This document shows positions 2,745 through 56,712 of a DNA stretch of 64,000 nt, piece after piece. Position 1 is the first letter of the stretch. The number at the start of each line of letters is the position of its first letter. The translations under genes and the position numbers were made by a program. Under the pieces are notes generated by a model that was given only the letters and a program-made list of their open reading frames with translations, was not told the DNA's origin and did no database searches. The DNA comes from Stenotrophomonas sp. 610A2 (GTDB lineage Bacteria; Pseudomonadota; Gammaproteobacteria; Xanthomonadales; Xanthomonadaceae): NCBI RefSeq assembly GCF_030549615.1, contig NZ_CP130832.1:186001-250000 (forward strand), written 5' to 3'.

Positions 2745-4928
2745 TCAGAACTTGAACGTATGGGTCAGCGACACCATGCGGCCGCGGCCGGAGAAGAAGT
2801 TCTGCCAGCCCGGCAACTGCGACCAGGTCAGCACGTACTGCTTGTCGAACACGTTCTCCACGCCCAGTGCCAGCTGGCCATAACGGCCGATGTCGTAGTT
2901 CACGCTGAGGTCCCACAGCGCGTAGCCATAGGTGTTCTCTTCGTTCTTGTAGACGGCATTGTTGGACGGGTTGACGAAGGTCTCGCGCAGGTCGCGGCTG
3001 AAGGTCTTGCTCACGCCCAGCGTTGCGCTCAGGTCATCGTTCGGGGTCCAGGTCACCGAGGCATTCACCTTGTCCGGCGAGATGTCGAGGATGCCCATTT
3101 CCTTCTTCAGGCCCGAGCCCGGGTAGTACTGGGTCTGGCCACGGATGCGCGAGTACAGGAAGCTGGCCTTCCACTGCTCGTTGAAGGTCCAGGCGCTGTT
3201 CAACTCGAAGCCCTCGATCTCGACCGGTGCGCGGGTCAGGATGAAGTCTTCGGTTGCCGGATCGATGGTCAGGCTGGAACCGAAGTCCGAGGTCGAGCGG
3301 TACACGGACGCACCCAACTGGCCCTTGGCACCGCGCCAGTTGAAGCCGATTTCCTTGTTCTCGGTGATCAACGGCTGCAGGTCGGCGATGCAGGACACGG
3401 CCTTGCACGGGCTGTTGGCCTGGATGTTGCGCAGCGGGATGCCGACGTTGGCAATGCCGAAGCCTTCGGAGTACGAAGCGAACACCGACCACTCATCGGT
3501 GATGCGCCAGATCGCACCGAAGTTGGGCATGTTTGCCTTGTAATCCATCTTGCCGCCCTGCACCGGAGTGTGGTCGCGGTAGGCAACGGTGGTGTAGCTG
3601 TCGATTTCCAGCTGGCCGTCTTCGCGACGGATGCCGGCATCCAGCGTGACCGGGCCGATGTCCCAGCTCAGCTGCGCGTACGGCGCGATGCTGGTGTACT
3701 TCATCGGCGGCACCCACAGGCGGTTGGTCAGCGCCAGGCGCTGCTCGGCGGTGTCTTCGACCAGGTCCAGGCCGGCACGCAGGCGCAGGCCTTCAACCTT
3801 GAACAGGTCGCCGTAGGCGTAGCCGAAGCGCAGGCCCTTCTTCTCGCTGTTGATTTCCGACTGGTCCCAGATGCGCAGGGCGTCATCGGTCGGGGCTGGC
3901 TTGGTCAGCTGGCGGTCGTCGCCGTTTTCCGGCACGTAGCGCATGGCCTGCTCGGCCCAATACGCATCAACGCTCAGGTCGCCACCGAAGAAATCGGCAT
4001 TGGTGTACTTCACCGCGAACTGTTCGAAATCGTTGAACTCGGCCAGCGAGCCGGCGATGGAACCCTTCTCGGCGGTATTGGTGGTCGGGTTCGGGCAGGT
4101 CACCGCATCAAAACGGCAGCCTTCGACCGGGATGTAGTTGTGCTTGCCGCCGATGTGGAAGTTGCTGTAGCTGGCCTGGATGCGCTGCATCTGGCCTTCG
4201 CCGAAGTTGTAGCCGCCCTTCAGGAACAGGTTCTTGCTATACGAATCGGACAGCGAGCCGGAGGTGTTCAGGCCGACGCGGCGGCCGTCGCCGTCATAGG
4301 CGATACCGCGATCGATGTAGGCGCCGCTGATCAGGTAGTCGACCGCGTCGCCCTTGAACGTGTGGGTGACGCCGACCTTGGACTGGCCGCTGTCATCCTT
4401 GAACTGGGTGCCGTAGCGGGTGGTGATGGTGGTTTCGTGGCCAGCCACATCCGGGTTCTTGGATAGGTAATTGATCACACCACCGGCGCCGCCGATGCCT
4501 TCAGCAGCGGACGGGCCGTTGATGACTTCGATGCGGCCGATCACGCCCATGTCGGTGAAGGTGCCGTTGCGGCTGCCTTCGCGCAGCGGCGAGCCCTGCG
4601 GCACGCCGTCGAACAGGCGCAGCGCGACGCGACCGCGCAGGGTCTCACCGGAGTTGCTCATCGCCTGCGAGGATTCGGAATAGCCCGGCACCATGCGTGC
4701 GAGCACGGCGGTGGCGTCTTCGGTCAGGTTGAGGGTGCGCTGCACCTGCTCCGGGCTGATCAGGGTGACCGCGCCGGGCACCTTGTCGATGGCAACCGGG
4801 GTGCGGGTACCGGTGACGATCACCTGGTCCAGCGTGGTGGCGGCATCGCCTGCGTCCTGCGCGAAGGCCGGGCTCATCGCGCTGGCGAGCAGCACGGCGC
4901 TGATGGCGGCCGAAAGTGGCTTGATCAT
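2745..4928 (-). CDS. TonB-dependent outer-membrane receptor
   Basis: This 727-residue protein has a signal peptide (LSAAISAVLLASAMSPAFA), a TonB-box-like segment LDQVIVTGTRTP near residue 34, a plug domain at about residues 45-160 with the FDGVPQG and NGPSAAEGIGGAGGVINY elements, and a 22-strand barrel ending in the C-terminal aromatic residue (LTHTFKF). The plug resembles siderophore and metal-chelate receptors more than the long Xanthomonas sugar receptors (compare the one at 35.2 kb). Residues CRFDAVTC could form an extracellular-loop disulfide. No Fur-box-like sequence was recognised upstream, so the ligand is open. The nearest regulator is the LysR gene upstream on the same strand. Confidence 0.88.
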   Translation of the reverse strand: MIKPLSAAISAVLLASAMSPAFAQDAGDAATTLDQVIVTGTRTPVAIDKVPGAVTLISPEQVQRTLNLTEDATAVLARMVPGYSESSQAMSNSGETLRGRVALRLFDGVPQGSPLREGSRNGTFTDMGVIGRIEVINGPSAAEGIGGAGGVINYLSKNPDVAGHETTITTRYGTQFKDDSGQSKVGVTHTFKGDAVDYLISGAYIDRGIAYDGDGRRVGLNTSGSLSDSYSKNLFLKGGYNFGEGQMQRIQASYSNFHIGGKHNYIPVEGCRFDAVTCPNPTTNTAEKGSIAGSLAEFNDFEQFAVKYTNADFFGGDLSVDAYWAEQAMRYVPENGDDRQLTKPAPTDDALRIWDQSEINSEKKGLRFGYAYGDLFKVEGLRLRAGLDLVEDTAEQRLALTNRLWVPPMKYTSIAPYAQLSWDIGPVTLDAGIRREDGQLEIDSYTTVAYRDHTPVQGGKMDYKANMPNFGAIWRITDEWSVFASYSEGFGIANVGIPLRNIQANSPCKAVSCIADLQPLITENKEIGFNWRGAKGQLGASVYRSTSDFGSSLTIDPATEDFILTRAPVEIEGFELNSAWTFNEQWKASFLYSRIRGQTQYYPGSGLKKEMGILDISPDKVNASVTWTPNDDLSATLGVSKTFSRDLRETFVNPSNNAVYKNEENTYGYALWDLSVNYDIGRYGQLALGVENVFDKQYVLTWSQLPGWQNFFSGRGRMVSLTHTFKF

Positions 4929-46021: not shown

Positions 46022-46103
46022 CCCGGGTAAGCGCAGCGCACCCGGGGAATGGTCGGCGTACTAGCCTGTGCGCGAAAGGCTGCCGAGCATGGCTCGGCAC
46101 TAC
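46022..46103. repeat. CCCGGGT hairpin and SMAG palindrome between convergent uvrD and rtcR
   Basis: GTAGCCCGGGTAAGCGCAGCGCACCCGGGG (stem 46022-46046) is another interspersed palindrome of this group. A reverse SMAG copy follows at 46081-46103 and runs into the end of rtcR (last codons from 46100). Either could end transcripts from both sides. Confidence 0.75.
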
Positions 46104-47701
46104 GGTTGGGTTGCGTGATTCCTCAGCTGCTCCCAGTCCAGATCGAACTTGGCCAGGTACTTGCGCAGGCGGTCGGCGTCGTTGGTGCTGGCGCGCTGGG
46201 TGCGGGATACCGCGAACAGCTCGCGGCCGGCGGCTGACAGGCTTTTCGAGCGCAGGCAGACGCGCACCACTTCTTCCAGCTGCACGCGGTCGAAGCGGTC
46301 CAGCTGGTTTGCCGCATCGCCGAGCAATGCCTGCAATGGCGATGCATCATCGCCGCCATGCCATTGCGTGCGCAGGCGGTTGATTTCTTCATCGACGCCG
46401 TCGGTCTGGATGCGGCCGGCATTGGCCAGCGTCGCCATGCGTACCACGCTGGCACCCAGGTCGCGGAAGTTGCCGCGCCATGCGGCTTCGCTGCTGGTGG
46501 CGAAGTTCAGATAGCGGCTGCGCGCTTCGGTATTGAAGCGCACGCGTTCGTGCTGCTCGCGTGACCAGCGCTCCAGTTCAAACTCGAGGTTGGGTTCGAT
46601 GTCTTCGCTGCGTTCGGCAAGGCCGGGGAGTTGGTAAGTCCACAGGTTCAGGCGTGCCAGCAGGTCCTCGCGGAAGCGGCCTAGTCGTACGTCCTGCTGC
46701 AGATCGCGGTTGGTGCCGGCAATCAACTGGAAGTCGCTCTCCACCTCGCGGTCGCTGCCCACTGGCAGGAAGCGCTTCTCTTCCAGTGCGCGCAGCAGCA
46801 TGGCCTGTTCGTCGGCACCCAGCTCGCCGATCTCGTCGAGGAACAGCAGGCCTTGGTGGGCCGAGCGCAGCAGGCCGGCGCGGTCACTGCTGGCGCCGGT
46901 ATAGGCGCCCTTGGTGTGGCCGAACAAGGTGCTCATCGCGCCATCGCCACGCAGGGTGGCGCAGTTCACCTCGACGAAGCGACCTGGCAGCTGGTGCTTG
47001 AGCTTCTTCAGCTCGAATACGCGCTTGGCCAGCTGGCTCTTGCCGGCACCGGTGGGGCCGGTCAGCAGCATCGGTGCGCGCGAACGCGTGGCTACTTTCT
47101 CGATCTGCTCGATCATCCGGTTGAAGGCCGGGTTGCGGGTGGCGATGCCGCTCTTGAGCAGGTCGCGATCCTGCAGCTGCTGTTGGGCGAAGCGCTGGGC
47201 GATGTGGTCGTAGCGCGACAGGTCCAGGTCGATCACGGTGTGGCTGCCGGGGTCGCCATTGGCTTGCTTGCGCGGCGGCGAGGTCTGCAGCAGGCGGCCG
47301 GGGAAGTGGCGGCTCTCGGTCAGCAGGAACCAACAGATCTGGGTGACGTGGGTGCCGGTGGTGATGTGGACGTAATAGTCCTCCTCGTCCGGCTGGAATG
47401 GATAGGCCGCGAGAAAGTCATGCAGGCGTGCGTAGACGCCTTCGAATTCCCAGGGATCGACCAGGTAGGTGTCGTGCAGGCGCAGCTCGGTACCGGGTGA
47501 TACCAGTGCCAGATCTTCCTGCACCAGTTTGGCCAGCCGGCTGAAGCGGCGCTCGTCCAGCATCAGCTCGATGCGATCGGGCTGGAAGTCTTCATGCATG
47601 CCCAGGGCTACGGTGGGCCGCCATTTTTCCCAGCGACCGGGGCCGCTGCCCGAATCGAGCTGGGTGCCGAGCATGCCGAAGATGACCTGCCGCTTGGACA
47701 T
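46100..47701 (-). CDS. rtcR: RtcR, sigma-54-dependent activator of the RNA-repair operon
   Basis: The protein has 533 residues from ATG 47701, chosen because AGGA lies six bases upstream; ATGs at 47707 and 47779 are less well placed. Residues ~1-180 are the RtcR regulatory domain (CARF-like, with VHITTGTHVTQICWFLL). Then comes the AAA+ core: Walker A GPTGAGKSQLA (~residue 216), the sigma-54 contact loop as GAYTGA (usual form GAFTGA), Walker B LLFLDEIGEL and GTNRDL. A helix-turn-helix-like C-terminus (SLSAAGRELFAVSRTQRAST) ends it. In E. coli and Salmonella, RtcR senses RNA damage products and activates rtcBA. It is divergent from the operon it should control. Confidence 0.95.
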   Translation of the reverse strand: MSKRQVIFGMLGTQLDSGSGPGRWEKWRPTVALGMHEDFQPDRIELMLDERRFSRLAKLVQEDLALVSPGTELRLHDTYLVDPWEFEGVYARLHDFLAAYPFQPDEEDYYVHITTGTHVTQICWFLLTESRHFPGRLLQTSPPRKQANGDPGSHTVIDLDLSRYDHIAQRFAQQQLQDRDLLKSGIATRNPAFNRMIEQIEKVATRSRAPMLLTGPTGAGKSQLAKRVFELKKLKHQLPGRFVEVNCATLRGDGAMSTLFGHTKGAYTGASSDRAGLLRSAHQGLLFLDEIGELGADEQAMLLRALEEKRFLPVGSDREVESDFQLIAGTNRDLQQDVRLGRFREDLLARLNLWTYQLPGLAERSEDIEPNLEFELERWSREQHERVRFNTEARSRYLNFATSSEAAWRGNFRDLGASVVRMATLANAGRIQTDGVDEEINRLRTQWHGGDDASPLQALLGDAANQLDRFDRVQLEEVVRVCLRSKSLSAAGRELFAVSRTQRASTNDADRLRKYLAKFDLDWEQLRNHATQP

Positions 47702-47823
47702 ATCCATTCCTATAAAAAGCGCGCTCAAAGTATACGTAAGTTCGCAATGCGGATGCGCGAATCGTCTCCTGGAAATCAAAAATACCTTTGTGAATCAACG
47801 AGTTGATCGAGGAACGGAAAAGT

Positions 47824-47839
47824 TGGCACGGCCATTGCG
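47824..47839 (+). promoter_or_regulatory. Sigma-54 promoter of the rsr-yrl-rtcBA operon
   Basis: TGGCACG-GCCA-TTGCG matches the sigma-54 consensus (TGGCACG-N4-TTGCW) almost perfectly, with -24 GG at 47825-47826 and -12 GC at 47837-47838. It lies 50 bases before rsr and downstream of divergent rtcR. TCAACGAGTTGA (47795-47806), an inverted repeat just upstream, is a possible activator-binding site, though close for an enhancer. Confidence 0.92.
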
Positions 47840-47888: not shown

Positions 47889-49436
47889 ATGGCCAACGCA
47901 AACCTGTTCGCTTCCTTCCGCGGCGCCCTGCTGCCGAAGGCCACGGTCCGCAACGAAGCCGGTGGATCGGCCTATGCCCGTGACCCGCGTGCGGCCTTGG
48001 CTCTGTTCGCCGCCACCGGTTGCTTGAACAGCACCTTCTACGCCAGCGCCGATGCGCAACTGGAGCAGGTGCAGGCGCTGTGCAACGAGGTCGATGCCGG
48101 CTTCATTGCCCGCACCGCCGCCTATGCCCACGGCGTGGCGCATATGAAGGACGTGCCGGCGCTGCTGTTGGCAATGCTGAGCGTGCGTGATGGCGAGGCC
48201 TTTGCCGCAGCCTTCCCGCATGTGATCGACAACGGCCGCATGCTGCGCACCTTCGTGCAGATCATGCGTAGCGGTCGGGTGGGTCGCCGTTCGCTGGGCT
48301 CGTTGCCGAAGCGCCTGCTGCGGCAGTGGCTGGAGCAGGCCTCGCCGAAGGCGATCATCCGTGCTGCGATCGGCAACCAGCCGTCGCTGGCCGATGTGAT
48401 CCGCATGGTCCATCCCAAGCCGCAGGATGCCGCGCGTGAGGCGCTGTATGCCTGGGTGATCGGGCGGCCCTACGACGAAACCTTGCTGCCGGCAGAGCTG
48501 CGTGCCTACGAGGCGTTCAAGCGCGATCCGCGCGGGATGCTGCCGGACCTGCCGTTCCAGTACTACAGCGCGCTGGCATTGGTTGCGACGCAGTGGTCGG
48601 TACTGGCACGCAACTCGAGCTGGCAGCAGCTGCGGATGAACTTGAACACCTTTGCCCGTCACGGTGTGTTCGAGGACGAATCCATGGTTGCAGAAGTGGC
48701 TGCGAAGCTGCGTGACCCGCAGCAGATCGCCCGCTCGCGGGTGCTGCCTTACCAGCTGCTGATGGCTTACCACGCCGGTGCGGCACTGCCGCGTCCGATC
48801 CTGGACGCGCTGCAGGACGCGATGGAAGTGGCGACCGCTTCGGTGCCGGCATTGCAGGGCAACGTAGTTGTGGCGGTGGACGTCTCCGGTTCGATGCAGT
48901 GGCCGGTGACCGGCTATCGCAAGGGGGCAAGCTCGGCGGCGCGTTGCGTCGACGTGGCGGCCCTGATCGCGGCCTGCGTGCTCCGCGGTCACCCGCAGGC
49001 GCAGGTGCTGCCGTTCGATACCGAGGTGCGTCCGCAGCAGTTGAACCCGCGTGACAGTGTGATGACCTTGGCACGGCAGTTGGCGATCAATGGTGGCGGT
49101 ACCTCGGTAAGCGCACCGCTGGCCTACCTCAACCGCAAGCGGGCGCAGGTGGATCTGCTGGTGCTGGTGTCGGACAACGAAAGCTGGCGTGACACCCGCG
49201 GCCGCCAAGAGACCGCAACCATGCGTGAGTGGGCCGCGCTGAAGGCGCGTTGCCCGCAGGCGCAGCTGGTCTGCATCGATCTGCAACCGGTGGCCAGCAG
49301 CCAGACGGTAGAGCGCGAGGACGTGCTGCATATCGGCGGCTTCAGCGATGCGGTGTTCGAGTTGCTGGCCAATGCCAGCCTGCCGCCGGCACAGCGCCCG
49401 CGCTGGGTGGAGCGGATCGCGGCAATGGATTTGTAA
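47889..49436 (+). CDS. rsr: Rsr, bacterial Ro60 (TROVE-domain) protein
   Basis: This 515-residue protein is similar in size to animal Ro60 and bacterial Rsr. Residues ~1-340 form the HEAT-repeat TROVE ring (DPRAALALFAATGCLNSTFYA, AFAAAFPHVIDNGRMLRTFVQIMRSG, RSLGSLPKRLLRQWL). Residues ~330-515 form a von Willebrand A domain whose metal site is VVAVDVSGSMQW (DxSxS) with a later GGGTSVSAP and LVLVSDNESW. Ro proteins bind Y RNAs on the outer ring face and the ends of misfolded RNAs in the hole. The gene is preceded by AAGGAG and a sigma-54 promoter and followed by the tRNA-like RNA array. Confidence 0.95.
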   Translation: MANANLFASFRGALLPKATVRNEAGGSAYARDPRAALALFAATGCLNSTFYASADAQLEQVQALCNEVDAGFIARTAAYAHGVAHMKDVPALLLAMLSVRDGEAFAAAFPHVIDNGRMLRTFVQIMRSGRVGRRSLGSLPKRLLRQWLEQASPKAIIRAAIGNQPSLADVIRMVHPKPQDAAREALYAWVIGRPYDETLLPAELRAYEAFKRDPRGMLPDLPFQYYSALALVATQWSVLARNSSWQQLRMNLNTFARHGVFEDESMVAEVAAKLRDPQQIARSRVLPYQLLMAYHAGAALPRPILDALQDAMEVATASVPALQGNVVVAVDVSGSMQWPVTGYRKGASSAARCVDVAALIAACVLRGHPQAQVLPFDTEVRPQQLNPRDSVMTLARQLAINGGGTSVSAPLAYLNRKRAQVDLLVLVSDNESWRDTRGRQETATMREWAALKARCPQAQLVCIDLQPVASSQTVEREDVLHIGGFSDAVFELLANASLPPAQRPRWVERIAAMDL

Positions 49437-49490: not shown

Positions 49491-49525
49491 CCTGGAGACT
49501 ATTTCATGGGAGAAGGCGGATGCCG

Positions 49526-49575
49526 GCCTGACTACATTGGTTGTTCATTCCGGTTCGAATCCGGAGAGTCAGTCC
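49526..49575 (+). ncRNA. Reduced tRNA-like/Y-like RNA unit 0 (T-arm only)
   Basis: A canonical T-arm (TCCGG-TTCGAAT-CCGGA, 49549-49565) is enclosed by an outer stem GGCCTGACT / AGTCAGTCC (8 of 9 pairs). Between them lies ACTACATTGG, which matches the AACTACATTGG of unit 3 and the AACTACAGCC of units 1-2. No D-arm is present. A wider TGGGAG/CTCCCA pairing (49507-49512 with 49591-49596) could close a larger domain. It is either a degenerate copy or a minimal Y-like RNA. Confidence 0.5.
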
Positions 49576-49624
49576 AACCCTTGCCGTCTGCTCCCACCCC
49601 TCAATGTCGGCATGTGCGAATGCC

Positions 49625-49756
49625 GATGGAACTACAGCCTTTCACGCTCCAGGTCGCGGGTTCGATTCCCGCCCGATGCCGCAATGCATCGGTAGCTCAG
49701 TGGATAGAGCAGGATCGCCGCCTTGCCCTCGTGGCACAGCGGTGAAACGTTCCATC
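49625..49756 (+). ncRNA. yrl: Y RNA-like (Yrl) with circularly permuted tRNA module, unit 1
   Basis: The ends pair perfectly (GATGGAAC 49625-49632 with GTTCCATC 49749-49756). Inside, a T-arm (GCGGG-TTCGATT-CCCGC, 49656-49672) is followed directly by CCGATGC (49673-49679), a six-base loop, and GCATCGG (49686-49692), a perfect 7-bp acceptor-like stem. Then come T-A (tRNA positions 8-9) and a D-arm GCTC-AGTGGATA-GAGC (49695-49710) with the invariant A and GG. The order is therefore 3' tRNA half before 5' half, joined through a sealed acceptor end. An extra hairpin (CCGCCTTGCC/GGCACAGCGG, ~49718-49742) lies between D-arm and closing stem. This fits bacterial YrlA RNAs, which mimic tRNA and bind Rsr. 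Confidence 0.82.
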
Positions 49757-49840
49757 ATTCTTGTCGTACTTGCCGGCACCTTTTCATATTACTTCGTGCT
49801 TCGGCATGAAAGCGCATCAACGTCGGCATGCACGAATGCC

Positions 49841-49940
49841 GAAGGAACTACAGCCTCTTAAGCTCCGGGTCGCGGGTTCGAATCCCGCCCGTTGTGGAAA
49901 CGCAGCGGTAGCTCAGTCAGGTAGAGCAGGATGTTCCTTC
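49841..49940 (+). ncRNA. yrl: Y RNA-like (Yrl) with circularly permuted tRNA module, unit 2
   Basis: It has the same plan as unit 1 in 100 nucleotides. Closing stem GAAGGAAC (49841-49848) with GTTCCTTC (49933-49940), perfect 8 bp. T-arm GCGGG-TTCGAAT-CCCGC (49872-49888). Acceptor-like strands CCGTTGT (49889-49895) and GCAGCGG (49902-49908) pair over 7 bp with two G-U pairs around a GGAAAC loop. Then TA and a D-arm GCTC-AGTCAGGTA-GAGC (49911-49927). It lacks the extra hairpin of unit 1. The loop and acceptor sequences differ while pairing is kept, which supports a folded RNA rather than a dead copy. Confidence 0.82.
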
Positions 49941-49994
49941 AAACCTCGTCGTGCACGCCGGCACCTTTCGTAGATGTTTCATGCGGTGAATGCA

Positions 49995-50082
49995 GGTGGA
50001 ACTACATTGGAAGCCCTTCGGGGTCGGGTTCAAGTCCCGGCCGCCTTGCCAGACCTGTTCTGGCATTGCGGACAGTTCCACC
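49995..50082 (+). ncRNA. yrl: Y RNA-like unit 3, T-arm plus long hairpin, no D-arm
   Basis: The closing stem is again a perfect 8 bp, GGTGGAAC (49995-50002) with GTTCCACC (50075-50082), and AACTACATTGG follows the 5' strand. A T-arm TCGGG-TTCAAGT-CCCGG lies at 50024-50040. Instead of an acceptor plus D-arm, a hairpin CCGC..TGCCA / TGGCA..GCGG (50041-50071) occupies the place. It is a Y-like RNA whose tRNA mimicry is partial. It ends 47 bases before rtcB. Confidence 0.65.
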
Positions 50083-50129
50083 CCCTTTGTCACCGCACCT
50101 TTGATTTGAAGATGACAGGAAAGCCATCA

Positions 50130-51356
50130 ATGAACGACACCAATTACAACGTGATCCAGGAGCATGGTGCGGCACCGATCAAGCTGTGGACGCGCGGCGT
50201 GCCCTTGGAAGACGAGGCCCGTGAGCAGCTGAAGAACATCGCGCGCCTGCCCTTCATCCATCAGTGGGTTGCGGTGATGCCCGACGTGCACCTTGGCAAG
50301 GGCGCAACCGTGGGCTCGGTGGTACCGACCATCGGCGCCATCATTCCGGCTGCGGTTGGCGTGGATATCGGCTGCGGCATGATCGCCACCCGCACAACGC
50401 TGACCGCCAGCGACCTGCCGGACAATCTGTCGGCCCTGCGCAGCGCGATCGAACGCGCAGTGCCACATGGCCGCAGCGTGACCCGTGGCGGCCGCGACAA
50501 GGGCAGCTGGGACACCGCGCCGGAGCTGGCGGTGGAAGGCTGGTCGCAGCTTGCTGCTGACTTCGCCCTGATCTGCGAGCGCCACCCCAAGCTGAAGAAC
50601 ACCAACAACCTCAAGCATCTGGGAACGCTGGGTACCGGCAACCACTTCGTCGAGGTGTGCCTGGATGAAGAGCAGCGCGTGTGGTTCATGCTGCACTCCG
50701 GTTCGCGTGGCGTCGGCAATGCCATCGGCACCTACTTCATCGAGCTGGCCAAGCAGGAAATGCGTCGCTGGATGATCAACCTGCCCGACCAGGACCTGGC
50801 ATACCTGCCGGAAGGCAGCGCGCATTACGGCGACTACGTGTTCGCGGTGGATTGGGCACAGCGTTTCGCCCGCATCAACCGTGAGGTGATGATGCGCAAC
50901 GTCGTGGCCGCCGCACGTACGGTGATCAGCAAGCCGTTCGAGGCGCAGGCCGAGGCGGTCAACTGCCACCACAACTACGTCAACCGCGAGCACCACTTCG
51001 GCAAGGATGTGCTGGTGACACGCAAGGGCGCAGTGAGTGCGCGCAAGGGCGAGATGGGCATCATTCCGGGCAGCATGGGCGCCAAGAGCTTCATCGTGCG
51101 CGGGCTGGGCAACGAGGACAGCTTCCACAGCTGCAGCCACGGTGCCGGCCGCGTGATGAGCCGCACCAAGGCGCGCAAGCTGATCAGCGTGGATGACCAC
51201 ATCAAGGCCACCGCGCATGTGGAGTGCCGCAAGGACGCCGAGGTGGTGGATGAGTCACCGGCCGCCTACAAGCCGATCGAGGCGGTGATGGAGGCGCAGC
51301 GCGATCTGGTTGAGATCATGCATACCCTGCGTCAGGTGGTATGTGTGAAGGGATAA
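50130..51356 (+). CDS. rtcB: RtcB RNA ligase
   Basis: The protein has 408 residues from ATG 50130 (AGGAAAG upstream). The long open frame further left runs through the RNA array and is not coding. RtcB joins 2',3'-cyclic-phosphate or 3'-phosphate ends to 5'-OH ends using GTP and Mn2+. Metal and catalytic residues are visible: MPDVHLGKGATVGSV, GVDIGCGMIA (Cys), GTGNHFVEV, HSGSRGVG, NCHHNYVNREHHFG and SCSHGAGRVMSR, whose His is the guanylylated residue in E. coli RtcB. In this operon it would seal cleaved tRNAs or related RNAs. Confidence 0.97.
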   Translation: MNDTNYNVIQEHGAAPIKLWTRGVPLEDEAREQLKNIARLPFIHQWVAVMPDVHLGKGATVGSVVPTIGAIIPAAVGVDIGCGMIATRTTLTASDLPDNLSALRSAIERAVPHGRSVTRGGRDKGSWDTAPELAVEGWSQLAADFALICERHPKLKNTNNLKHLGTLGTGNHFVEVCLDEEQRVWFMLHSGSRGVGNAIGTYFIELAKQEMRRWMINLPDQDLAYLPEGSAHYGDYVFAVDWAQRFARINREVMMRNVVAAARTVISKPFEAQAEAVNCHHNYVNREHHFGKDVLVTRKGAVSARKGEMGIIPGSMGAKSFIVRGLGNEDSFHSCSHGAGRVMSRTKARKLISVDDHIKATAHVECRKDAEVVDESPAAYKPIEAVMEAQRDLVEIMHTLRQVVCVKG

Positions 51357-51404: not shown

Positions 51405-52421
51405 ATGGAAATGATCGAGATAGATGGAAGCCAGGGCGGCGGGCAGTTGCTGCGCTCTGCGTTGAGTTTGAGCCTGTGCACCGGGATTGGCTTTGCCATG
51501 CAGGACATCCGTGCCAAGCGCTCACGGCCCGGCTTGATGCGCCAGCATTTGACCGCGGTCAACGCTGCGGCGCGGATCAGCAATGCACAGGTGGAAGGCG
51601 CAGCCCTGGGCGCGACCACGCTGCGTTTCGTGCCTGGCATCGTGCAGGCTGGCGACTACCACTTCGCCATCGGCAGCGCTGGCTCGGCGACGTTGGTGCT
51701 GCAGACAGTGCTGCCCGCGCTATGGCAAGCCTCCGCGGCATCACGTGTGCGCCTGGAAGGCGGTACGCACAACCCGATGGCACCGAGTGCCGACTTCATC
51801 AGCAGCTGCTATCTGCCGGCACTGGCGCGCATGGGCGTGCAGGCCGACTTGCAGCTGCATGTACCGGGCTTCCATCCGGCCGGTGGCGGTGTGCTCGAGG
51901 CCATGGTGCAACCGTGCCCGCAACTGCAAGCACAGGAATTCAGTGTGCGCGGGCCCTTGCAGGCGCTGGAAGCGCAGGTGCTGGTATCGGGCCTGCCCGC
52001 CGCCATCGGCCAGCGTGAGCTGGATGTGCTGGCAAAGCGCTTCGGTGTGGACGCCCATCCGCGCCATGTGCAGGTGGTGCGGCCGGCCTTGGGCCCGGGC
52101 AATGTGGTGTCGATGACGGTGTGCCATGACCAGCACGTGGAACATTTCGACAGCCATGGCGAGCGCGGGCTGGCTGCAGAAGGCGTGGCCGGGCGGCTGG
52201 CCGATACCGTTCAGGCCTACCTGGATGGCGGTGCCTGCGTGGGCGAGCACCTGTCCGACCAGTTGCTGTTGCCGATGGCACTGGCCGGCGGCGGCCGCTT
52301 CACCACCGGCACGCTCAGCGACCACCTGCGCAGCAATGCGCGGCTGATCGAGAAGTTCCTGCCGGTGGAATTCGACTGGCAGCAGCGCGGACCACACTGG
52401 GAGGTATGGGTCAGCGCCTGA
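51405..52421 (+). CDS. rtcA: RNA 3'-terminal phosphate cyclase
   Basis: The protein has 338 residues from ATG 51405, preceded by AGGAAGG; an ATG at 51363 is less favoured. It starts IEIDGSQGGGQLLRSALSLS, the conserved RtcA N-terminus, with GSAGSATLVLQTVLPAL and HVPGFHPAGGG in the middle and the active-site His in VGEHLSDQLLLPMAL (~residue 290) that becomes adenylylated. It converts RNA 3'-phosphates to 2',3'-cyclic phosphates, the substrate of RtcB. It is the last gene of the sigma-54 operon, 48 bases after rtcB. Confidence 0.96.
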   Translation: MEMIEIDGSQGGGQLLRSALSLSLCTGIGFAMQDIRAKRSRPGLMRQHLTAVNAAARISNAQVEGAALGATTLRFVPGIVQAGDYHFAIGSAGSATLVLQTVLPALWQASAASRVRLEGGTHNPMAPSADFISSCYLPALARMGVQADLQLHVPGFHPAGGGVLEAMVQPCPQLQAQEFSVRGPLQALEAQVLVSGLPAAIGQRELDVLAKRFGVDAHPRHVQVVRPALGPGNVVSMTVCHDQHVEHFDSHGERGLAAEGVAGRLADTVQAYLDGGACVGEHLSDQLLLPMALAGGGRFTTGTLSDHLRSNARLIEKFLPVEFDWQQRGPHWEVWVSA

Positions 52422-56476: not shown

Positions 56477-56505
56477 TCCGCGACAGACGCAACGTCTGTC
56501 GCGGA
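56477..56505 (+). terminator. Strong 13-bp hairpin
   Basis: TCCGCGACAGACG and CGTCTGTCGCGGA pair perfectly around CAA, one base after the stop of the 40-codon frame and 164 bases after polA. TCTCTCCC follows. It probably ends polA or small-ORF transcripts. Confidence 0.75.
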
Positions 56506-56712
56506 TCTCTCCCATCCCCTGGAGCAGATCTCGGAGCGGGGATTCCTCCCCAAATGCCCGCTCCCCGGCCCCGTCGACCCCCCCCTGGTCGGCGGGGCTT
56601 CTTTTTTGTAGCAAATGAAACTATTTCCGCCGCGCTTGTTGCCGGCGAGTTTCTCGCACCATCTTTATCCGCGTTGGCCGACGATGGCGCCATCGAGTGG
56701 TGGAGGGGAATC

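Follow-up and report, generated by a model that had tools for sequence, protein, structure and literature searches.

tmRNA and viral tRNA-like structures mimic the shape of a tRNA, and permuted tRNA genes are present in the red alga Cyanidioschyzon. Y RNAs encoded near Ro60 have reportedly been described, in a 2014 paper, in more than 250 species, with at least one tRNA-like member each. The closest described system is YrlA (RF02553; PDB 6CU1) of the Salmonella rsr-yrlBA-rtcBA operon, which lies next to rsr and rtcBA, has an Rsr-type stem with GRAUGC and UUGUC, and includes T, acceptor and D arms in permuted order. Circular permutation is already in print for a bacterial Y RNA, PDB 6CU1 (PMC11472068, in excerpt). 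For YrlA, the excerpted text of PMC8394870 names no arms other than the D, T and acceptor arms as mimicking those of a tRNA. The Y RNA of Deinococcus radiodurans also binds Rsr and may tether an effector such as PNPase (PMC7790460 and PMC8394870, in excerpt); the likeness of the RNAs presented here to this RYPER system is by description. In the literature covered on anticodons and permuted tRNAs, which did not extend to the primary YrlA papers, no description of an anticodon-type hairpin in YrlA or other Y RNAs was found, and such an absence is not proof of novelty.

Here, an operon of this kind is described from Stenotrophomonas sp. 610A2, in a window of 64,000 nucleotides (contig NZ_CP130832.1, positions 186,001 to 250,000), which is the whole stretch of DNA analysed. 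It has four Y-like RNAs, compared with two in Salmonella, and two of them almost certainly contain a complete permuted tRNA with its anticodon stem-loop.

Operon organization and distribution of rsr

The gene order is rtcR on the minus strand, then on the plus strand rsr, a 0.7-kb gap with the four Y-like RNAs, rtcB and rtcA.

46100..47779, minus strand: rtcR, sigma54-dependent activator with RtcR sensor domain (Pfam RtcR 255 bits, Sigma54_activat 168 bits)
47823..47838, plus strand: sigma54-type promoter-like site TTGGCACGGCCATTGC, 51-66 nt upstream of rsr, weak alone
47889..49436, plus strand: rsr, bacterial Ro60 orthologue (Pfam vWA_Ro60 58.7 bits)
50130..51356, plus strand: rtcB, RNA ligase (Pfam RtcB 430.6 bits)
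51405..52421, plus strand: rtcA, RNA 3'-phosphate cyclase (Pfam RTC 246.7 bits)

The N-terminal half of the rsr product gave no match in the Pfam search; relatives of the gene are annotated as TROVE or RNA-binding protein, and the nearest named ones in one scan of genome contigs belong to Stenotrophomonas humi (96%) and S. terrae (95%). The pattern TGGCACN5TTGC has a single match in the window against 0.38 expected, and at least one match was found in 29 of 100 shuffles; as one such chance site is not rare, the sigma54-type site upstream of rsr is weak by itself, and a stricter pattern (W at the end) had zero matches in the window. Between 47700 and 50200, no sigma70-type promoters were found, and terminators occurred only at chance level. 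Further along the window (56491-56604, plus strand) is sX13, a known sRNA of Xanthomonadaceae, with 119 bits to Rfam RF02232.

The rsr gene was present in 28 of the 297 genomes of the family sample and in 2 of 17 of the genus, so the operon is patchy. The rtcR-rsr-Y-rtcBA block of Xanthomonas sacchari (NZ_CP010410.1, L087) is located on a 509-kb replicon, near gltX, and Rhizobium plasmids commonly carry rsr (44/76 plasmid records with a match). In one case (L072/L073, G342:C25:6930-8425) the rsr match is split into two pieces, perhaps by a frameshift or a gap. Annotated phage records include 246 with rsr, mostly distant actinophage proteins; of three taken up for comparison, two unverified ones (L093 and L094) look alike and are probably not phage.

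The four Y-like RNAs

The interval between rsr and rtcB contains the following units.

49507..49596, plus strand: Y RNA unit 1, Rsr-type stem and T-arm only (27.7 bits to YrlA, below cut-off)
49607..49775, plus strand: Y RNA unit 2, complete permuted tRNA module and an extra hairpin (42.9 bits to YrlA, below cut-off)
49823..49965, plus strand: Y RNA unit 3, YrlA proper, complete permuted tRNA module (Rfam RF02553, 74.4 bits)
49982..50097, plus strand: Y RNA unit 4, Rsr-type stem, tetraloop hairpin, T-arm and long hairpin, no D-arm (31.2 bits to YrlA)

The presence of Y-like RNAs at this place, proposed in the original prediction from the letters of the DNA, was borne out by the Rfam match of unit 3 and by the Y core found in every unit, which consists of a stem, GRAUGC, a second stem ending in AC, TACA, and UUGUC or UUGCC on the 3' side. 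YrlA membership was decided by the Rfam gathering cut-off of 69 bits, which only unit 3 reaches. The match spans are 49829-49958 for unit 3 (E-value 3.3e-17), 49613-49741 for unit 2 (4.1e-8), 49983-50099 for unit 4 (9.6e-5) and 49513-49593 for unit 1 (0.001), these E-values being for the 751-nt stretch searched alone. All four are encoded beside rsr, and a tRNA-like domain with T, acceptor and D arms is present in units 2 and 3 but not in unit 1 (T-arm only) or unit 4 (no D-arm). By its architecture unit 2 was filed as YrlA-like, and units 1 and 4 were filed as Y RNA-like.

YrlA scores of 30.6-31.9 bits were also obtained at three places with tandem tRNA genes in the same genome; the assignment of units 1 and 4 therefore comes from relatives and conserved stems and not from Rfam. 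All four units have alignable copies in relatives. The alignment of unit 4 (13 sequences) has 21 pairs, 7 with both-side change, and a covariation term of -1.19, and that of unit 1 (6 sequences) has 24 predicted pairs, 5 with both-side change, and a term of +0.28, which is slightly unfavourable; the relative of unit 1 in L008 is without the standard T-loop. ARAGORN called no tRNA genes in the window, none of the units being read as a linear tRNA. The Rfam tRNA model scored just over its cut-off on the Y RNA sequence of two other loci, L016 (3215-3359, 34.5 bits) and L074 (3415-3489, 30 bits), so automatic annotation may list false tRNAs there.

The permuted tRNA module of units 2 and 3

The two full units stood as originally predicted, with extents slightly wider (49607-49775 and 49823-49965) than those first given (49625-49756 and 49841-49940). 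Their parts are as follows.

49636..49648, plus strand: anticodon-type stem-loop of unit 2, AGC[CTTTCAC]GCT, tRNA positions 29-41
49656..49672, plus strand: T-arm of unit 2, from sequence reading and register
49673..49692, plus strand: acceptor-type stem (7 bp) of unit 2, loop CGCAAT
49693..49713, plus strand: U8-A9, D-arm and positions 26-28 (AGG) of unit 2, GG pairing with CC at 49649-49650
49715..49745, plus strand: extra hairpin after the D-arm, unit 2 only
49852..49864, plus strand: anticodon-type stem-loop of unit 3, AGC[CTCTTAA]GCT
49872..49888, plus strand: T-arm of unit 3, from sequence reading and register
49889..49908, plus strand: acceptor-type stem of unit 3, loop GGAAAC
49909..49930, plus strand: U8-A9, D-arm and positions 26-28 of unit 3, GG at 49929-49930 pairing with CC at 49865-49866

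In both units the module runs from the anticodon-type stem-loop and the variable region into the T-arm, then through an acceptor-type stem of 7 bp with a 6-nt closing loop to U8-A9 and finally to a D-arm that has A14 and GG. From the T-arm onwards, this agrees with the circularly permuted tRNA that had been proposed. The T-loops are TTCGATT in unit 2 and TTCGAAT in unit 3, and the acceptor-type stems are GCATCGG/CCGATGC and GCAGCGG/CCGTTGT, the latter with two G-U pairs. The Y stem of both ends in GGAAC/GTTCC and is followed by TACA. These RNAs differ from tmRNA and viral tRNA-like structures in having neither a reading frame nor a charged free acceptor end, and in that their tRNA parts are permuted and joined to the Y stem.

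Selection on the structure, also part of the original prediction, is seen in compensatory changes: over the whole structure, including the Y stems, 97.5% of cells are paired, compared with 82.5% after shuffling (32 sequences), and the conserved Rsr-type stem (GRAUGC/UUGUC; helices 1 and 2 of alignment A3) is 94.6% and 96.9% paired, with both-side changes in 11 of its 14 pairs. The extra hairpin of unit 2 (49715-49745) also covaries, being kept in 5 genomes with 49/50 cells paired and 4 both-side changes.

An anticodon-type stem-loop completes the tRNA

The GGAAC/GTTCC stem had been thought to replace the anticodon arm. Instead, the units have kept an anticodon-type hairpin, which covaries, and the insertion of the Y stem lies next to this hairpin. 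The comparison was made on 87 rsr loci with downstream DNA, 85 of them distinct (L042/L066 and L093/L094 are near-identical pairs), after dropping L001-L006 (further matches within the genome of the window), L035 (from the genome that also provides L008), L054 (where a local search found no rsr match) and L073 (second fragment of one rsr). With a pattern for the core and T-arm, 69 of the 87 loci yielded a total of 170 units; a D-arm is also present in 96 of these, from 60 loci. Between ACTAC and the T-arm, 20 nt is the most frequent spacing (50/96 of these T- and D-arm units), and the units spaced by 17-23 nt, 74 in 56 loci, were taken as the comparable set; two spurious units (L015 and L017, with acceptor loops read as T-loops at distance 38) are among the 96 and outside the 74.

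A 7-nt loop on a stem of three base pairs occupies the place of tRNA positions 29-41. With the register fixed to that of a tRNA, all three pairs are formed in 67 of the 74 units (52 loci), compared with only 0-11 units after sliding of one strand or of both; counted without selection over all 74 units, 204 of 222 cells are paired. The two lower pairs, in which positions 42-43 pair with positions 27-28 after the D-arm, played no part in the selection of the 67 units and are formed in 146 of 148 cells of the 74 units, as CC/GG, CG/CG and GC/GC. For the five pairs of the anticodon stem together, in the 66 distinct selected units, 330/330 cells are paired, both-side changes number 76 against 18.5 in shuffled alignments, and the covariation score is 0.667, against 0.115 shuffled and 0.013-0.066 slid. 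With pairs 29-31/39-41 and 27-28/42-43 both formed, no pair of the anticodon stem is missing, and its interruption by the Y stem falls between positions 28 and 29. Judged from these alignments, it is almost certain that units 2 and 3 are YrlA-type RNAs with a complete permuted tRNA interrupted by the Y stem at that point. The Rfam YrlA model is without this hairpin and aligns its 13 nt as an insertion in both full units; relative to that model (for Salmonella, the Rfam consensus only), the units have in addition the anticodon-type stem-loop and the last two anticodon-stem pairs. The hairpin is not in every module, being absent from 27 of 94 units with T- and D-arms (the two spurious ones removed), which coexist with hairpin units in the same arrays.

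Thermodynamic folding of the units of the window prefers a GCCU/AGGU hairpin and gives the anticodon-type pairs probabilities of 0.03-0.16. This competing hairpin was rejected, as it is 74.2% paired compared with 73.3% shuffled and thus has no comparative support. Un-permuting the 67 units for ARAGORN was discarded as a line of evidence: 67/67 were called with the expected anticodon, yet 60-66/67 were still called after shuffling of the hairpin, and an ACCA tail had been added to each, so the calls say nothing about the hairpin or the 3' end. The 29 other units with T- and D-arms, forced through the same register, gave 19 calls.

Arrays and module in other genomes

An array of four with full, partial and minimal versions had been regarded as unusual. 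This was not upheld, as multi-member Y RNA arrays are normal in rsr-rtcB intervals. Within an early subset of the loci, 40 have rtcB on the same strand at a distance of up to 3 kb; 2-6 core motifs are present in 39 of these intervals (11 two, 8 three, 16 four, 3 five and 1 six) and none in one; the reverse strand of the same intervals has none in 35, one in 4 and two in 1. Bare-hairpin and T-arm-only units also recur in the family, among the units listed.

A covariance model (R1) was built from 32 units, including unit 3 of the window and not unit 2. In the window it found three of the four units, with 106 bits for unit 2 and 47.3 bits for unit 4, and did not find unit 1 even at E 10. At E<=0.001, R1 has matches in 292 of the 297 family-sample genomes, many covering only model positions 31-109; the weak matches limited to this span are presumed to be tandem tRNA genes. 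With at least 70 bits, a threshold chosen after the results were seen and for a model that contains some of the scored units, matches were found in 27 of 28 rsr genomes of the family sample and in 0 of 269 without rsr (best 60.9), the remaining rsr genome (G146) having a best score of 57.5; in the phylum sample, the same threshold gave 9 of 12 rsr genomes and 0 of 386 others (best 68.4). Over related genomes, high scores of the model thus track rsr.

R1 gave 56 matches in 31 loci overlooked by the pattern search or counted there as hairpin-less; 10 of the alignments were inspected. The anticodon-type hairpin was present in L044 (Acidobacteriota), L043 (Verrucomicrobiota) and three loci of the window's order (L057, L058 and L062), none of which is in R1. 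It was also found in both units of L086, an IMG/VR contig likewise outside R1, with loops AUCAUAA and CUGAUAA, and in one unit of L085, with a 2-nt insertion, the other unit being without it; L093 has no hairpin. L085 (61 kb) and L086 (194 kb) are predicted viral IMG/VR contigs that have an rsr gene with nearby Y RNAs.

In most genomes, the weak scores of the module model over positions 31-109 apparently fall where the 3' half of a tRNA gene runs into the 5' half of its neighbour. A simple idea for the origin of the module is that it equals such a junction between tandem tRNA genes; this would account for the scores of models at these places (seen for the YrlA model in this genome, presumed for R1). 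On the Acidobacteriota contig (L044), a hairpin-bearing Y RNA (3490-3636) lies right behind three tRNA genes (3205-3488), upstream of rsr; the layout would fit an origin of the Y RNA from a tRNA array.

Loop sequences and the acceptor loop

In the 67 units, C32 is found in 55, U33 in 57, U35 in 55 and A37 in 64; position 34 is C in 22, U in 17, G in 14 and A in 14, position 36 is U in 32, G in 18, C in 15 and A in 2, and position 38 is A in 37, C in 27 and U in 3. The loop bias is thus C32 U33 N34 U35 N36 A37. U35 is present in 38/43 units on the Xanthomonadaceae side and in 17/24 elsewhere, and in 25/36 distinct loops compared with 8/34 distinct tRNA loops of this genome, a reference that is incomplete (42 tRNAs by ARAGORN where Infernal found 61). 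Known anticodon nucleases often act on tRNAs with NUN anticodons (Lys, Glu, Gln, Asn, Asp, His, Tyr), which offers a lead.

The loop of unit 2, CUUUCAC, is identical to that of tRNA-Glu(UUC) of this genome, and the loop of unit 3, CUCUUAA, to that of tRNA-Lys(CUU). Matches to the tRNA loops of the genome occur in 27/67 units (column-shuffled mean 11.9; 0/10000 as high) and in only 6/36 distinct loops (3.3 expected; reached by 850/10000 shuffles), so relatedness may explain the identity, and the idea that the loops are copies of real anticodon loops was rejected. A single donor tRNA was rejected as well, since the nearest real tRNA varies and the scores are within the range of real tRNAs against each other.

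The acceptor loop starts with N-CCA, as tRNA positions 73-76, in 17 of the 56 hairpin units with an acceptor loop of at least 4 nt (11/67 units with shorter loops were left out); CCA at other offsets occurs 0-2 times, and shuffled loops have a mean of 1.2 and a maximum of 6 (5000 shuffles). The NCCA units are from Planctomycetota, Alphaproteobacteria and the window's own order, and some of the 17 are closely related (e.g., L023, L029 and L030), so fewer are independent. Units 2 and 3 of the window have no CCA, and unit 3 has G-U at 1-72.

Proposed function

Here it is proposed that the locus encodes an array of tRNA-mimic Y RNAs within an rtcR/rsr/rtcBA operon, the best explanation overall, with a probability of roughly 0.5. 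The array would be co-transcribed with rsr under RtcR and sigma54 when tRNAs are cut, and Rsr would bind the Y stem and present the tRNA-shaped body, with its anticodon loop, to tRNA-recognising enzymes. Because the two full units appear to fold like a whole tRNA, anticodon loop included, they may stand in when real tRNAs are cut, and the array could serve as a decoy or resealable bait for the anticodon-loop nucleases whose damage switches the operon on, with RtcB encoded next door. Some role of the anticodon loop in facing tRNA enzymes is fairly probable, and the nuclease decoy or bait specifically is a tentative suggestion. The Rsr-tethered tRNA mimic is favoured as a candidate, with the anticodon-nuclease decoy or bait as the leading role and PNPase tethering as the main rival.

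In that rival, a plain YrlA tether, the tRNA-shaped module would only dock Rsr to PNPase, in a RYPER-like manner, and the hairpin would be a prop of the three-way junction without a partner. Salmonella Rsr and YrlA are reported to bind PNPase (PMC9879122 and PMC8394870, in excerpt), and units without the hairpin are found in the same arrays; however, it is not obvious why a prop should require 7 loop nucleotides with U33, A37 and the U35 bias, or NCCA at the place of the 3' end, and the hairpin is present in at least four phyla and on a viral contig. The plain tether is rather unlikely, if still a serious competitor.

A stronger version of the decoy, considered unlikely, is that the Rsr-bound whole-tRNA copies, their quickly changing anticodon loop exposed, would be sacrificial bait for toxin, phage or defence anticodon nucleases, to be resealed by RtcB. 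The cut RNA would hold together, with the Y stem and the tRNA core keeping both halves, and nucleases that act on NUN-anticodon tRNAs would find a broad target in loops of the type U33-N34-U35-N36-A37. A bolder addition is that, where NCCA is kept, opening of the acceptor loop by RNase P and RNase Z might leave a free CCA end.

RtcR responds to 5' fragments of tRNAs cleaved in their anticodon loop, which induce the operon, and for four Salmonella tRNAs (Trp, Tyr, Cys and Phe) the end of most fragments is at position 36, between two adenines (PMC7790460, in excerpt). A36, the nucleotide at these cuts, is rare in the loops (2/67), which argues against bait for that particular activity. According to the same excerpt, YrlA fragments were not detected in Salmonella and YrlA is not cut by the nuclease, its authors suggesting that the tRNA-like domain of YrlA might competitively inhibit it (PMC7790460).

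The RNAs might also act as damage sensors: cleavage of the Y RNA by a nuclease in its anticodon loop would yield a fragment that bears a 2',3'-cyclic phosphate and contributes to the RtcR signal. They share the operon with RtcR, and the CARF domain of RtcR binds 5' tRNA halves that terminate within the anticodon loop and have a cyclic phosphate (PMC7790460, in excerpt). After permutation, however, a cut in the loop would leave the Y stem, and not a tRNA 5' half, as the upstream fragment, and an RNA made only after induction could only amplify the signal, which makes this role improbable.

Much less probable still is a permuted tRNA gene, in which the Y stem would be excised, RtcB would join position 28 to 29, and RNase P and RNase Z would open the acceptor loop to release a translating tRNA. 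All tRNA parts are present, RtcB is adjacent, NCCA occurs in 17/56 units, and the un-permuted sequences read as tRNAs, with the weak control given above; as in Cyanidioschyzon, the 3' tRNA half precedes the 5' half and, in some species, CCA is inside the linker. The units differ from those genes in their Y stem with the Rsr motif and in the lack of any sign of joining to a translating tRNA; neither a usable anticodon (A34 in 14/67 loops, position 34 essentially free) nor a usable 3' end was found, as the units of the window are without CCA and unit 3 has its G-U at 1-72, and no single donor tRNA fits. Decayed tandem tRNA genes or an annotation artefact, to which the weaker and apparently tandem-tRNA matches of the module model in nearly all genomes (292/297) might point, can practically be dismissed in view of the covarying Y stems that enclose the module, the conserved GRAUGC/UUGUC and the strong tie of high scores to rsr.

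For the tRNA-mimic array favoured here, the loop is the part handled by anticodon nucleases, by RtcA and RtcB and by RtcR. Should an anticodon loop be present in many YrlA-type RNAs, together with the CCA position in several lineages, the role of bacterial Y RNAs in RNA-repair operons would therefore become directly testable.
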